This document shows positions 23,686 through 32,756 of a stretch of 64,000 nt of DNA, piece by piece. This DNA comes from Citrus sinensis (lineage: Eukaryota; Streptophyta; Magnoliopsida; Sapindales; Rutaceae): assembly GCF_022201045.2 (NCBI RefSeq), contig NC_068560.1, positions 37,969,001 to 38,033,000 on the forward strand, given 5' to 3'. The stretch's first letter is position 1. Each line of letters opens with the position of its first letter. The position numbers were made by a program, and so were the translations under genes. The notes beneath the pieces were generated by a model. That model did no database searches. It worked only from the letters and a program-made list of their open reading frames with translations, and had not been told where the DNA came from.

Positions 23686-23887
23686 GAGTAATGATACAGC
23701 CACAAACTTTTGTATAAATTTATTTTGTACAAACTGATGTGGCATGATAAGATTGGTTGAATTAAATATCACTTGGCCCACATAATTTATTTTTATTAAT
23801 TTATATTTTCATTCAACCAATAAATTAATGCCACGTCAATTTGTACAAAATAAATTTGTACAAAAATTTGTGGCTATATCATTACTC
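23686..23887. mobile_element. Mutator-like MITE, family A copy 2 (202 bp)
   Basis: Same termini as copy 1 (GAGTAATGATACAGCCACAA and its inverse) and same interior (GGTTGAATTAAATATCACTTGG). A 10-bp target duplication TAAGAACAAC is exact at 23676-23685 and 23888-23897. No coding capacity. Confidence 0.88.
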
Positions 23888-24790
23888 TAAGAACAACTAG
23901 TGTACGCCGAATATTGGGGAAGTGCTTTTAGCATCACTCAAAGTCTGGGAGCTGGCTGGCAGATACAAGCTAACGCTACAATGTTGCAAATTCTGGAAGG
24001 ATTTTTCTCCTTTTAGATTTCTGACGCAGCAGGGAAGCAAAGTGAAGATAACACACGACTACCCAGGAAAAAAATTTATGAAATTGATTAACAGTTTTAT
24101 AAACTAGGGTTTTCCCCTTTTTATACGATAAACCTGACAAGTATGAAAATATTAAAAAGAGTAAAATTAAAATATTAAAATAAAATAAAATTATAATGAC
24201 CGAAATAATGGGGGGGGGAAAGCACTCAATTATGACATCTAGATAAAAATATAACAATGTAGAAAGAAATTTAAAATTGGGTAAAACTCTTCAACTTGTG
24301 ATTCAGGCCTAAAGAAGGAATTTCAAGATGATTTATGAACAAAAATCTTTTTTAATAAAGACATATCAAACAAGTAAATCGCTCATTGATAGACACTTGT
24401 ACAGTTTTGTCTAAAGATCAAAAGTTGGTGTGTGTATCTTTATGTGTCATGGGACTTTTTTTTAATTTTTTTGAAATTTCTAAATTGGCTGCAGCTGTAG
24501 ATTTATAAGTTTGGACTATTTGACCTATGCGTAATAGTTGTAAAATGACTATTAATTCTTAAAAAAAAAATTGCATGCCAACACAGAATTTGAATTCTTA
24601 TGAGGTTTTGGACAGACAATTATCAATAGAAAAATATTGCCTAAAATTCTTACAGCTTGTTATTAATTTTGCAGACTGCAGAGTAGAACTTACACCATCG
24701 GGCATACAACAAAGTCGAAAAACCATTGGCAAAAGACTGCCCCACAATGCAGTATCATAACCATCCTTTGAAAAGGCCAATAAAAAAGGT
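23888..24790. other. Intergenic, no gene recognised
   Basis: AT-rich, with a short G-run near 24210. No exon structure or family match in either strand. Confidence 0.5.
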
Positions 24791-24862
24791 CGCCGTTGCC
24801 GGGGATCGAACCCGGGTCACCCGCGTGACAGGCGGGAATACTCACCACTATACTACAACGAC
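24791..24862 (-). tRNA. tRNA-Asp (GUC)
   Basis: 72-nt cloverleaf on the minus strand without CCA or intron. The acceptor stem pairs GTCGTTG with CAACGGC (one G-T pair). The anticodon arm is CCCGC-CTGTCAC-GCGGG with anticodon GTC (24827-24829). The T arm is CCGGG-TTCGATC-CCCGG. The A box (TAGTATAGTGGTGAGTA) and B box (GGTTCGATCCC) for RNA polymerase III are intact. Nuclear type. Confidence 0.97.
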
Positions 24863-27180
24863 AATTGATGAAAGCAACTCCATTTTTTTTATTTCATATC
24901 GTTTTGTTACCGTAATCTATCCTTTTATTTATTATTGAGACGGCAACTAGTCCTGGGCAAATATGATTGCCCTATTGTGTATTCCTTTATGTTCATTTGA
25001 GATTAAGGGAAGAGTATGTAAGTACCAATTAATCTACCTTTTTTTTTCTTAACAAATTTCCCCCCAATTTTGTACTAGAAATAAGATTTCAAAAGTTCGA
25101 ATCGCTCTCACACACAGCTTTAATTTGAAGGAACACTACCATTTTATGGAGAATGGTACTTTCATTCTTTTTATGGTTTGGTTTTACCACTTGCTCTCTA
25201 ATAAATGTAAAATACCACATTTTATCTATGGTGATAAAATAGTAACAAATGAAGGATAAATGTGGTATTTTTACATACAAATTGATTATTTGAGAGTCCT
25301 ACAAATGAAAGTTAGTTAATTTATTAATGAAACATTTACCCTTTGACAATGTAATTTTTTTTTGTTATTGTATGTTTTAATTTCAAAGATGGAATGAGAT
25401 ATTAAAGATTTATCAATTAAGAACATAAATTGTAAAAATAATTTCTAAAAAAGATAAAATGTTATTCTCTTAATTAATTTTATTGAATCTTTGAAGAAGA
25501 TTATTTTATCAAATTGATCCTCTCTCTTGGTCTCTTCCCTTTTTCCGAAAATCGATAAGAGAAGGCAGCAACTGCGGTGAAGGTGAAAAATGGGATTGTT
25601 ACGATTGTGGGTGCTAGTAATAGCCATAGGTGGAACATAGTAATAGCCATAAGTATTGAATGCGGAATCTTTGTCTGATTGCTAAAGTAATAGCAGGCAT
25701 CCTCCCCATCTAATGCGCTCTACTTCACTCTTCTTCTCTTATTAAAGATTGGCCATTTAATTGCTTACATTTACTCTCTCAACCAACTTTTCTTTGTTTG
25801 CTTCCGAGTTCCGACTGTGAATTGAAGGGAATCCGAAGTAGGTAAATAAATAAATAAAAATGTTGTAATATTATAACAATAATGCAAATAAACTTCTCAA
25901 TTATTATTATTATTCAACAAGTGAGATGACATGCTACTGAATGATGGATTTAATTACTATTTTTCAAACTAACTAATCGTGACGGTGACGGTGATACAAT
26001 TTTATTTGGTTTTTGTATTAAGATGGTCTTATTCATATAAGCATTTCTCAAGCTATAAAACGTGTCAAATATCTAGAGTACATGCCTCCATATTTAAGGA
26101 TATAAATATCATATCATATATATGGATCAACTTCTCATTTGACATAATCTTTTGCTCGTGTAAAGAAGGTTGAGATTGATTGTTAACAAAAGAAAAAATT
26201 TTTGTCGCTGTTGGTTTTGGACTTGAACTAAATAGATACTCTAGTTTATAGTGTGTGTGTTTGGTGAACAAATTAATGCTATGCTAGCTCTAGTTTCAAT
26301 TGTATGTAGTAAATATTATAAAAACTCATACCTTTTCCTTGAATTGATTTAAGAATCTTCAGGTTGCTGGGTTTATATATAGAATTTCAAAAGAACCATT
26401 TAAGTCATAATAGGCAATTGATTAAGATATTAGAAAGTTGAACTAACTGAAAAGTTCTCCACTGGCAGTTACAAATATTAAATTAAGTGTAAACTTCATT
26501 ATTATTTAATTAGTTAATGTAACAATCATTCCAACTATTTTCAGGTAACTTTATATAATTGGACACATGAGTTTGAATCATAAGAGAAATTTAGACTAAA
26601 AAATTAAATTGGACTTAACCTACCTCCTCTCCTTTTTCAAATAACTATTTTAATAAAATTAAAAAAAAATCTAGCAAAGTGGGAGTATTACCCACACGTC
26701 TTGAAATGTAAATATGAGGCTGGCGGCCGGATTGTAATGTCAATTTAGAATATAGTGTTAAATTATATTTAGATAGTTATCTAGCTTCAAATTGAAAGTT
26801 TAAAATATTAGCAAAACAACATTATAAAACCCTCAGTCATTCTGTAATTTAATTTTATAATAATACTAGTTATCAACTCTGAATATTTTACAAAAACTGT
26901 TTTCATATATGTATAGGGTTATTCAAACTATTAATTGTTTAAAGTAATCGACTAAAAGTTGATTCATGGTCTCACTCTTTTCTTTTTTTCCCAATAAAAA
27001 TTAAGAAGATAAGAAAGTCTAGAATACTCTTGGTGAATACATACATTCCTTTCTACGGGAGTGATGATGATGACCGGCGGATTTTACAAAAGAAGACGTA
27101 CAAAGCGGTCGAAATTAATTTCTCACCTTCCATATGCATGGATTAGATTTTTTTTTTTTTTTGGCTGCATGGTGTTAGAA
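24863..27180. other. Intergenic, 2.3 kb, no gene recognised
   Basis: AT-rich. An imperfect foldback lies at about 25150-25315: AATACCACATTT near 25213 pairs with AAATGTGGTATT near 25259, and ACTTTCATT pairs with AATGAAAGT further out. It may be a worn MITE. Otherwise short unsupported frames only. Confidence 0.4.
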
Positions 27181-27285
27181 GTAAGCACTAAGATATTGGC
27201 ACGGCTCAATCAAAGTCCACCAGCAAGCATTCAGCTTAAACGCTTAAGCTCTGAATGAACCGGGCCAATATCGCAGTGACTATTT
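27180..27285 (-). ncRNA. MIR171: MIR171 microRNA precursor hairpin
   Basis: On the minus strand the region folds as a miR171 hairpin. The 3' arm holds mature miR171 at 27192-27212 (21 nt: TGATTGAGCCGTGCC followed by AATATC). The 5' arm holds the star strand at 27250-27270 (TATTGGCCCGG followed by TTCATTCAGA). The arms pair along GATATTGGC/GCCAATATC and CGG/CCG, and the stem continues outward through CACT/AGTG. The loop is about 37 nt. miR171 guides cleavage of HAM-type GRAS mRNAs (SCL6/22/27). The 3'-arm position and the star sequence are both family-typical. The primary transcript limits are not visible; it would start at a coordinate above 27285. Confidence 0.95.
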
Positions 27286-29162
27286 CAGTATTGCAGCTCT
27301 TGACAAACACAAAAAATGAAGTAGAAAAAAAGAAAAGAAAAAGAAAGAAGAAGACTAGAAGAGAGAAATTAACGTATGTGGATTGTGAGGTGATGAGTGA
27401 GGAGTTATGAGAATGTTTTGGGTTACTTGGATCGAATAGAATTTAAAGAGAAAAGAGAGAGAGAGGGCTTTTTGCAGGTGTGTGCATTTAAAACCCTCGT
27501 CTGCCAAAACCCTAAACAAGGAACACAGCATTAATTCAATTGGCAAACCCTAAGCCAAGACCCCATTCTTTCTTTGTTTCTCTCTCTGTCCCTCTAAAAT
27601 CAACAGTACTACTGTCTCCGTCTTCCTCATTAATAAAGATGGAAGAGACTTTCTATTTCTTTCTACCCAACTAGCTAGCAAACCAGAGGCACAGACTGAG
27701 CTGCATTAATAAGGGAATCACGCGGCCATTATAAGACCATAGCTCTCTTTATTGATTATCAATCTCCGGCCCCTTGCCATAATTTATGGAATCTCATCAG
27801 AACGCACCACACCTTTTTGTCTCTTGGATATCGATGATCACCATACTTAACTTAGGAGAATAGATTAATAACTTGACCGCTGGAACGATTTCACTGTTGT
27901 CATAATTAATTTAATTCAAAAAGAGTTCGATATTCTATAAAACATGGGAAATTACTCCTAAAACATGAGGAAATTGATTTTCATTTGATGAAGACAAATT
28001 GGATTATCACCTTACAGCTCATTTTAAACCAATCACAAAATGGGGGAAGTTTTGACGTTTGATCGAGCAGTCTCATATACTCGGCTGAGACTGAGATCAT
28101 AAATGATAAATGAATGAGATGAAATTTCAGCAACAACTTAGTCCAATAATCCATAAATTTCGGAGGAAGAAAAGTTAATGGCAGTTATATTGTGAGCATG
28201 GAGTCAAGGACAAAGTGCAGCCATCATTTTCCATTCCATGTGTGGCAAAACTACGCAGCATGATATCATTCATGCCTTCATCAGGAAAACAATAAGCTTC
28301 CAATGAACCCTGCAGACAGTGTGTCACGAAAACTAGCCAAATGTTAAACCATTAGCCAACTATTAATTACTTATTATTGCCTCTAGTTCAAGTTAATAAT
28401 TAATGATTAACCATCTTGCCCAATTATCTCTATCAAGCGTAGTTAAAGAAATTTTCAGTGGGACCACCTTTTTCTTCCCCTCTCTGAGACTTTGGGACCG
28501 CTTGGAAACTGCCAAAGATAGCCACTTTACAGGGAAGAGCACGATTCTGTTAGCACCCCTCTACTATCCTCTTCAAACCCCTTTCCCATTTATATGCTAT
28601 TTAATTCCTAAAATAACTTTTATTTATGTTTATCCTCAATAAACCCCCCCATAAGCAATTCTCTCCCTCTCCTCTCTTTCTCCCTCTTCCATTTCAACCC
28701 TTTTTCAGCTTTTTATCGATACAGCATTTATCTGCTGTTTTCCTTCATCAATAAACCCCAACCTATTCTAGCTATTTCGAAAAGAAACAATATATGCACA
28801 AAGTTTGATCGTTCCCTAGCATGCTCATCATCATAAAGATAACAACCTATCAAAACTTCGCAAAAATTATTTTCCTTATAAAAATAAATTGCAAATAAGT
28901 GAATAGAGCTTAATTTCAATCAAATTCTTACTCTTTCAATTGACTTTTTTTTTTTTTTTTGGTAAACTTTGTAGATGTAAAGCATTTGTGATGGAGAAAG
29001 ACATGGAAAGCAAAACTGTACGCGACTTTAATTAGGTTAGTTTTAATTTTTAGTACAATTTAAAAGATAACGTACGAAATTATAAATACAAAACAATAGG
29101 GGCTTTGCTTCATAAGAGAAAAGATAGGTGCTGCTAGTAGCGTCGCTCTACGAAGGAATCAT
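27286..29162. other. Intergenic, includes probable MIR171 promoter side
   Basis: About 27340-27620 is purine- or CT-rich in patches, as in plant leaders, and lies upstream of MIR171 on the minus strand. Beyond that I see no gene. A pyrimidine-rich patch lies near 28655-28705. Confidence 0.4.
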
Positions 29163-29450: not shown

Positions 29451-31157
29451 TGATTCAGTCATCACATTCGTCCTGCCTGCATAAACTCTTTTTTTCTTTT
29501 GGATTACACTTGTTATGATCATAGATGATGACACAAATTGGGCACATGTTTTCTTTTTAGATAAGAATCATTCTCCTTTCCCTTGTATTTACTTCTAAAA
29601 TTAGAAAATTACAATGAATGGTGTAAAACCCATTAAAATTGGGAAGGAAGAACATGAATCCACTCCCAGGGTTGGGAATGAAAATTCTTATTTTTTTAAC
29701 TGACCGTTAAGTCTTTCCTTCTCATTTCTTATTGCGGATCAACCCACTCTAATCTCGTAAAATAAATATAGCATACACGTAATATAGAAATTTATCCTGG
29801 CCATAACCGCACCGTAGAGAAGAGATAGGTTATTGTCTCCTCCCTCCCGTGATAGGCTTAAGTTAAGCTTTCAATAATATAGTAGTGGGAGAAGCATCTT
29901 GTAATTTTTAAACCATCATCACCTCCTCTTTTTTCTTTATTTCCTTTTTTAATTTTTTTAATACTGTAGATGACTACAAATCAAATGTATCATCACACAG
30001 TCAAAAATTATACCTTTGTAAAAGATATATGTTAAAATCAAATTCATGCCCTCATAGTTTTGTGAACATGGATTACTAATGGACTAGAAGCGCTATTGCC
30101 CTAACCATCAAATATAATTCTAGTTTCGATTTAATTACATGTTATATTCCCACAAACTACTTTACATATTGTGGATCCCCACGATCGAGCTTGCTCCCGC
30201 AATTTCTCTCGATGCAATGGCTTTTGCCAATTGCCATGACAAAAATTGTTATATGATGCATAAATTGGCGTCTGTGATGTCAAAAAATTTGAGATTTGTG
30301 GTGAAGTTTCTGAAGAACTGTAATCAATTTGAGATTTGCTCACTGACTGTCACTCGCGGAGTCTTCTGTCAATGTAATTTGTTTTGTACTAATTAAGCAG
30401 TTGCATACAAATAAAATAATACCGAAGAGTAATTAATTAAGAACCATGATGTCATTTTTTTTAACTCGCACTGCTCCAAGGAGGCTGGATGACTGAGAAA
30501 GTATTTTATGCTGAATTGACATCATGATAATTAATTGCAACATGCTAGTCACGTTACATGCCAAACAGCGATAGCTCATTCATACCTCTACTTTCTCCAA
30601 GCTTATCTCAAACAGAATTGTATTTATTTTCAGGAAAAAAAAAATCTGAATTATATGCTGGCGACAATCTTTTTTAAAGAAAGAATTTGTGGACGCAATT
30701 ATTAATGCAGACTCGGTGAAGTAATGATTATGATGGCTTAAAAAATATATCAACTTGTTGTCGATGATCACCTTTCGCCATCCAACTGAAGCCCACTACA
30801 CCACGGCCTGATTTCATGTTGGTTTAATTAAATAGTTCTAACAGAAAGCATAAAGCCTTAATTATAATTAGTCTCGTGAAAACATGTAGCGTAAAAGCTT
30901 TCGACTTTCTTCTGATTTGGGAGAATGGATGGAATCTCAATATTGGTAGTGCCGTAGTACGGTGAAGATATCACCTTTGGAAAAAAAAAAAAAAAAACAA
31001 ATGTCCCACTCTTCTAATGAAGATTAAAATTTCTGAGTTATTTATTATTTAATTGTCAAAAAAATTGTCACCAATGGAGTGGTATATAATTTTTTTTTTC
31101 TCATGCAGGCACCCTCAAATTTTTTTTTGTATACATTAATACTTTTAAATATTTTAA
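29451..31157. other. Intergenic, no gene recognised
   Basis: AT-rich with only short frames. Poly-A tracts occur near 30979-30997. No RNA gene or element with ends found. Confidence 0.45.
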
Positions 31158-32009
31158 GGTAGTGTTTACTTGCTGGAGTGGGAGTGTGGAGTGTGGAGTG
31201 TGGATTCCTCCCACTCTAGTGTTTACTTACCTTAAAAAATGGGGAGTGGGAGTGAGAATTCGTGGGTCCCACTCAATTTTGGAGTGGGGAGTGGGATTCC
31301 CACTCCCATGGGGGGAGGTGGGAGTGGGAATCCACTCCCCCCTCTTCTCATTTTATCTTTATAATTAAAATTAAAATAAATAAATAATATTTAATAAAAT
31401 AAATAAATAATATTTAATAAAATAAATAATATCATATTTATTAAAAATAATAATTATATCATATTTATTTTATTAAATTTAATAAAATAAAAATAAATAA
31501 ACATTATATTTAAATTAATAATATTAAACATTAATTTTAATAAATATTAATTATTTATTTAATTAATAATAATAAATATTTTATTCTAAAAAAATATTAA
31601 TTTTGTACTATATTATCAATAATAATATTTCATGTGTTGCTATTATTAATAATTTTTATTCACATAATTTAAATTAAAATTAATAAAAAATTATGATTTA
31701 CATAATTAAGAATATTAGTAATTATTATTAATTTATAAATATAATAAAATATTTATTTTATTTTCCAAATATATTTTTTATTAATTTTTTAATTACAAAT
31801 TATAATCTGTACATAAGGATAAAATTATAATTTAAAATAATTTATTCTCAATCCAAGACAAAATAAACAAATAATTGGGATTCTGATTGACAATCCATAT
31901 TTTTATTTAGTCTAAGTAAACACCCTACTCCCACTCCCACTCCACACTCCTAATCCAAGGATTCCCACTCCTCAGGATTCCCACTCCAATCCAAAAAATA
32001 AACGCAGCA
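31158..32009. mobile_element. Harbinger-like element with G-rich ends, 852 bp
   Basis: TAA target duplication at 31155-31157 and 32010-32012. The left part has many GGAGTGGGA/GGGAGTGTGGA units; the right part has the complementary CCCACTCC/TCCACACTCC units, so long purine-rich arms can pair. Termini read inward: GGTAGTGTTTACTTG and TGCTGCGTTTATTTT, sharing GTTTA. The roughly 500-bp core is almost pure A/T. No transposase. Confidence 0.7.
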
Positions 32010-32756
32010 TAAGAGAATTAAATTTTAATTTTTTTAAACCGCACGATTTAAAAATATGTCCACATTTAAAAAATATACAAGCGCCCGCACCTAAGAATGA
32101 TGATGTATATTACAATTTAAGATTTTTAAATACAAAAAAATCCACAAAAATTTTAAAATCATGCGTTTTCAAAATTTAATTTAATAATACTATTAAACTT
32201 TATAGTCTTAATTTTTTTTCTAATTTTTTCCGTAATTTAAAATGTCATACTAAAAAATTCACACACATATATAGACCATTAAAACAAATATCAAAAAATT
32301 TTCCCACAATGAGTAATTTAATTGTCAAATCAAAATTGACAGCATAGCATAGTCCTCATTTAGTGGGGAATGAATCAACAGAGGAAGCCCAATGGCCAGC
32401 ACCGGCGGTGAGGTGTGTGACGCATGAAACGGATTAGAAAAGGATAAGGCTCTCTATTTATTTATAATTTGTTGATTAATATTTAATTACGCAGGTAGCA
32501 GAGGAGAGCAAACAAAGAGAGGCAAAATTAAAAAAAAAAAATGAAAGATACGATTCAGAGAGAAGCCAAACCATGGGCGGAAGCAAAGGCAGAAACATTG
32601 TGGTGTTTTCCTCCTTTCGTACAAAACGACTCAAAATTCTCTGTCGTTTAGTTCGTGCTCGAACAAGCGTGCTGTGCTCGCCACCGCTAGATATTATTCT
32701 TAGAAATGAAAGCTGCTCAGCCGTTGATTTGATGACCATGTGAGTGATTAATTTAG
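32010..32756 (+). promoter_or_regulatory. Upstream region of the STY kinase gene
   Basis: AT-rich to about 32340, then more mixed toward the kinase start. No exon recognised. A TATA box could not be chosen. Confidence 0.35.

Follow-up and report, generated by a model that had tools for sequence, protein, structure and literature searches.

Does the miR171 sequence on the minus strand of this Citrus sinensis DNA belong to a working microRNA gene, or is it a silent copy, a locus read from the opposite strand or a piece of a HAM/GRAS gene? The window, that is, the whole 64-kb stretch that was analysed, contains TGATTGAGCCGTGCCAATATC as an exact match at 27212-27192 on the minus strand, in agreement with the original prediction of a perfect 21-nt miR171 on a 3' arm. 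When the window was dinucleotide-shuffled 100 times, no match to this 21-mer with up to three mismatches arose. With a probability of about 95%, the sequence evidence points to an intergenic, independently transcribed minus-strand MIR171 gene, which would act through the Pol II/DCL1/AGO1 route to repress HAM/SCL6.

The hairpin and the miRNA/star duplex

The hairpin comprises the following elements:

27180-27282, minus strand: MIR171 hairpin, span of the Rfam MIR171_1 match (RF00643 71.6 bits, cut-off 48; fold z -5.12)
27192-27212, minus strand: mature miR171, 3' arm, UGAUUGAGCCGUGCCAAUAUC (exact match; identical 21-mer in 5 other hairpins of the genome)
27213-27249, minus strand: terminal loop region and short upper stem (from the folds)
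27250-27270, minus strand: predicted miR171 star, 5' arm, UAUUGGCCCGGUUCAUUCAGA (2-nt 3' overhangs in 4/4 folds)
27273-27286, minus strand: 5' side of the lower stem, with an internal loop closing the bottom (from the folds)

Folding of the minus strand of 27170-27300, by which the original prediction proposed to check the locus, gave one hairpin with a minimum free energy of -49.5 kcal/mol. Shuffles of the same segment (n=200) had a mean of -31.43 and a standard deviation of 3.53, which corresponds to a z of -5.12, and none of the 200 was as stable. The minus strand matches the full Rfam RF00643 (MIR171_1) model, positions 1-101, with 71.6 bits against a cut-off of 48 and an E of 7.7e-12. The lower stem reaches 14 nt below the last mature miRNA pair, or 16 nt from the 5' end of the star. 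The star itself, TATTGGCCCGGTTCATTCAGA at 27270-27250, was deduced from the fold and the 2-nt 3' overhangs; it is unchanged in all four folds with differing flanks, and its coordinates are those foreseen for it.

Community criteria for plant microRNAs call for a duplex with 2-nt 3' overhangs, no more than five mismatches and no large bulge, in a foldback of less than 300 nt; further criteria are the presence of both duplex strands in small-RNA libraries, with precise ends and in replicates, and DCL1 dependence. On the structural side, this locus has two unpaired positions in the duplex (miRNA positions 4 and 12), one G-U pair, no bulge and a hairpin of about 105 nt. MIR171 mature sequences are also characterised, in the available text of PMC10340099, by the fragments GAGCCG and CAAUAU, both of which the mature sequence contains. 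The unpaired positions had been expected to be those usual in the family; when the eight other MIR171-like hairpins found in the genome were compared, this was true of the copy at C7:640464-640585, where positions 4 and 12 are open too, but the other seven differ. By sequence, the locus is a real, well-formed MIR171 gene that agrees with the family in every testable feature, and its assignment to the minus strand is borne out by the mature sequence, the fold, the overhangs, the Rfam model and the paralogues.

The opposite strand, the target site and the ILARLN frame

Hairpins such as this can be read on both strands, and the plus strand, alone or together with the minus strand, could be the one at work, yielding an antisense miR171-like product, TGAATGAACCGGGCCAATATC, at 27252-27272. 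The plus strand does score above the RF00643 cut-off, with 53.6 bits, and holds this three-mismatch relative; nevertheless, the minus strand scores higher and folds better (-49.5 as opposed to -41.9), and matches on both strands are typical of such hairpins, being seen at 9/9 of the places found in the genome. Because the plus strand passes the cut-off and folds, sequence ranks the two strands and leaves a little room for the second, but a working plus strand is very improbable.

The reading of the plus strand also bears on a different explanation, in which a HAM/GRAS gene has left a fragment or an inverted piece at the locus and there is no microRNA gene at all. The plus-strand frame 27037-27255 does read ILARLN, which is what this explanation has in its favour. 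The peptide had been predicted here as a chance reading; its presence is confirmed, but chance is the wrong word, since miR171 complements the HAM site, so that opposite any miR171 one of the three frames must read ILARLN. Furthermore, in HAM mRNAs the miR171 site, GATATTGGCGCGGCTCAATCA, lies inside the coding sequence, as stated in the available text of PMC8910752.

The exact mature pattern with either pyrimidine at position 12 occurs at nine sites in the genome. Six of these have U at this position, and all six are MIR171 hairpins with the identical 21-mer, the window locus included. The three with C are the complement of GATATTGGCGCGGCTCAATCA and lie within open frames of 803, 714 and 706 codons, presumably HAM/SCL6 GRAS genes to judge by their sequence; the site is read in the ILARLN frame in all three. 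Against this site, miR171 from the window would form a single G-U pair, at miRNA position 12. Two of these HAM/SCL6-like genes with the exact site, at C3:51266800 and C3:51283904, are 17 kb apart and form a tandem pair. The available part of PMC10053592 gives four SCL6 gene models as predicted targets of citrus miR171b, two of them with neighbouring numbers, which would fit the tandem pair. At C7:27439858-27439878 there is another sequence that differs from the miR171 target site by two mismatches.

Between the window locus and the three site-bearing genes there is one similar stretch, of 21 nt with one difference, and the next best are of 9-13 nt. The likeness to a HAM gene thus stops at the site itself, and a fragment would leave the second arm and the fold unexplained; it is hardly credible as the source of this locus. 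An origin of the hairpin from a HAM gene by recent inverted duplication was likewise considered, and is unsupported given the same 21-nt limit. The concern that the plus-strand frame might be mistaken for a GRAS fragment did not materialise: Pfam gave for 27037-27255 an unrelated, sub-threshold match to DUF2232 (E 0.14), and no Pfam match was obtained for the minus-strand frame that crosses the star and reads ILARF. The GRAS fragment was rejected on these two grounds, the limit of similarity and the lack of a GRAS match by Pfam in either of the two frames crossing the site.

Genomic surroundings and the MIR171 family

Pfam was run on 20 chosen open frames, of at least 73 codons near the locus and larger ones elsewhere, a choice that a small or spliced exon could escape. 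No coding domain was recognised among them within about 3.8 kb of the hairpin, and no GRAS coding exon, the finding named beforehand as speaking against a microRNA gene, was found around the site in these frames. The hairpin is therefore probably intergenic. The recognised features of the window are:

14.5 kb: C2 domain (Pfam)
19.2-19.8 kb: plastocyanin-type frame (Pfam)
22.7-23.0 kb, minus strand: zf-DNL (DNL zinc-finger) frame, the nearest recognised on one side (Pfam)
24788-24863: tRNA-Asp
35.3-35.9 kb, plus strand: protein kinase frames, the nearest recognised on the other side (Pfam)
42.8 kb: GST (Pfam)
47.4 kb: HMG box (Pfam)
61.3 kb: F-box/KIB1-4 protein (Pfam)

Two repeat structures are also present in the window. 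The first, at 23686-23887, is a near-perfect inverted repeat with arms of 81 nt that are 86% complementary and spaced by 40 nt; it has weak Rfam matches to MIR6140 on both strands (45.1 and 43.9 bits against a cut-off of 140) and looks like a MITE-type element. The second, at 30977-32223, is AT-rich with inverted repeats of the GGAGTG type (31174-31193 with 31938-31957, 90% complementary) and is possibly a non-autonomous transposon.

The search of the genome (299.7 Mb in 11 contigs) with RF00643 gave at least 18 matches at no fewer than nine places, each matched on both strands. The profile search scored the best candidates, and the nine MIR171-like hairpins are thus a lower bound. At eight of the nine places at least one strand exceeds the cut-off; the place at C3:18.73 falls below it (41.3 and 40 bits). 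In a sequence alignment of eight of the nine hairpins, both partners have changed and still pair in 9 of 32 consensus pairs; these compensatory changes sit in the loop-side and base-side stems and are absent from the duplex. The paralogues mostly have some 20-40 nt in common around the mature arm, the longest such stretch being 88 nt in two C2 copies. The window hairpin has no notable stretch in common with its paralogues outside about 24 nt, and for this reason the duplication must be old.

This age bears upon the possibility that the locus is a pseudogene or silent copy, an intact hairpin that is either not transcribed or not processed. Loss of one copy could be harmless, as five other hairpins yield the same mature 21-mer. 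An old duplicate so released should, however, show decay in the star and the lower stem, whereas here the whole hairpin has been retained: an exact mature sequence, a clean duplex, a 16-nt lower stem and a z of -5.12. A silent copy is consequently unlikely, and an active minus-strand gene is preferred. Since six loci are able to make the same 21-mer, mature reads cannot name the active gene, and reads from the star and loop are needed.

Promoter, processing and known miR171 loci

For a minus-strand MIR171 gene, established plant biology would have RNA polymerase II transcribe it from a promoter located around 27440-27490. Two motifs in this region are candidates:

27441-27448, minus strand: TATA-like CTTTAAAT, candidate core promoter (from sequence)
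27484-27491, minus strand: L1-box-like TTAAATGC, candidate ATML1/PDF2 site (motif match)

The L1-box-like motif, at 27491-27484, is 209 nt upstream of the hairpin. According to the available text of PMC7058014, L1-boxes of the form TT(A/T)AATG(C/T) are found in Arabidopsis MIR171 promoters and are bound by ATML1 and PDF2, and changing two TTAAATGC sites abolished the signal of a MIR171A reporter in most Arabidopsis lines. The motif may thus link the citrus gene to epidermal factors of the ATML1/PDF2 type; if so, the locus would let the epidermal control of HAM described in Arabidopsis be examined in trees. To the eye the resemblance is striking, but the statistics of the motif are weak. Upstream of the nine hairpins found, TAAATGYA shows no enrichment: it is present in 1, 2, 3 and 3 of them within 300, 500, 1000 and 1500 nt, where shuffles give an expectation of 0.39, 0.81, 1.84 and 2.57; at the window locus alone, the chance of its occurrence comes to 1.5% for 300 nt and 5% for 500 nt. 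TTWAATGY occurs in three of the nine within 500 nt (background 13.4%, binomial P ~0.11) and six of the nine within 1500 nt (background 34.3%, P ~0.05), and TTAAATGC itself in two of the nine within 500 nt (background 3.1%, P ~0.03), these tests being post hoc, with motifs picked after the site was noticed and P values uncorrected.

On the sense strand no ATG is present from 27486 to 27231, and therefore a transcript starting below 27487 would have no upstream open reading frame. Further upstream lie ATGs at 27630, 27566, 27531 and 27487, whose frames run to 26, 11, 58 and 14 codons; they would count only if transcription began earlier. For the 58-codon frame (27531-27358, minus strand) to be a peptide candidate, transcription would have to begin above 27531. 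A miPEP encoded by the primary transcript is not supported.

DCL1 would then cut the primary transcript twice, first some 16 nt up from the base of the stem and next on the loop side, and the 21-mer of the 3' arm would be loaded into AGO1; cleavage of HAM/SCL6 mRNAs at the ILARLN codons would limit HAM activity in meristems. In the available text of PMC8688358, a first cut at the base is guided by an internal loop situated 15-17 bp beneath the duplex. The internal loop of the window hairpin is 14-16 nt below the duplex, close to this rule, although its stems are paired about equally (lower 0.63/0.63, upper 0.82/0.65); the C7 paralogue has a clearer base-to-loop pattern (lower 0.77/0.77, upper 0.73/0.37). 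Both orders of processing are described for the Arabidopsis family in the accessible part of PMC5322449, base-to-loop for miR171a and miR170 and loop-to-base for miR171b and c. The geometry of the lower stem suggests a base-to-loop first cut, though this is uncertain.

The C7 copy is like that of the window in further respects. It has the same 21-mer, its star differs from the window star at 2/21 positions, and it too has TTAAATGC upstream (-364); on the other hand, its loop is longer (58 nt between the arms as opposed to 39 nt), and the flanks of the two share short matches with no notable similarity beyond them. It is conceivable, if doubtful, that these two copies form a distinct subclass, with the star UAUUGGCCYGGUUCAYUCAGA, mismatches at 4 and 12, a first cut at the base and a proximal TTAAATGC L1-box, and that, unlike the other copies with an identical mature sequence, they carry the epidermal ATML1/PDF2-miR171-HAM cascade outside Arabidopsis. 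Were this the case, identical mature sequences would be split among paralogues by promoter and processing route.

The locus is a further member of a well-known family and ordinary in kind; with it, the miR171 complement of a fruit-tree genome grows by one well-supported gene. The citrus members csi-miR171a, csi-miR171b and csi-miR479, as given in the available text of PMC8121382 and, for the latter two, PMC2864249, belong to the same family and to other loci: the exact string of the first is at C9:30.80 Mb, those of the other two at C3:18.73 Mb, and none of the three occurs in the window copy. csi-miR479 and csi-miR171b share a single minus-strand hairpin, C3:18728384-18728496, of which each forms one arm. 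These two are given as separate microRNAs in the accessible parts of both papers, and the first of the papers lists identical counts for them in stem and root. Such exact strings make Citrus the likely host of this genome: in the literature searched, that of csi-miR479 turned up in two papers, both on sweet orange. The csi-miR171b string is not specific by itself, as Medicago miR171h is reported to have the same letters (PMC8910752, available text). Neither the full window star nor its 16-nt core was found in a literature search with RNA and DNA letters, supplementary tables lying outside its scope, and a search for the mature 21-mer with 'Citrus sinensis' gave three papers, no title among them being on citrus.

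In Arabidopsis, the ath-MIR171A/MIR170 type has the same mature register, ending in AAUAUC, with the miRNA on the 3' arm and complementary to the HAM site, and the available text of PMC7058014 places a TTAAATGC L1-box upstream of MIR171A, to which the L1-box-like candidate of the window locus corresponds in sequence. The two differ in their loops and flanks, and at position 12 of the miRNA, where ath-miR171a has C and the window miR171 has U, which gives the latter its one G-U pair with the HAM site.
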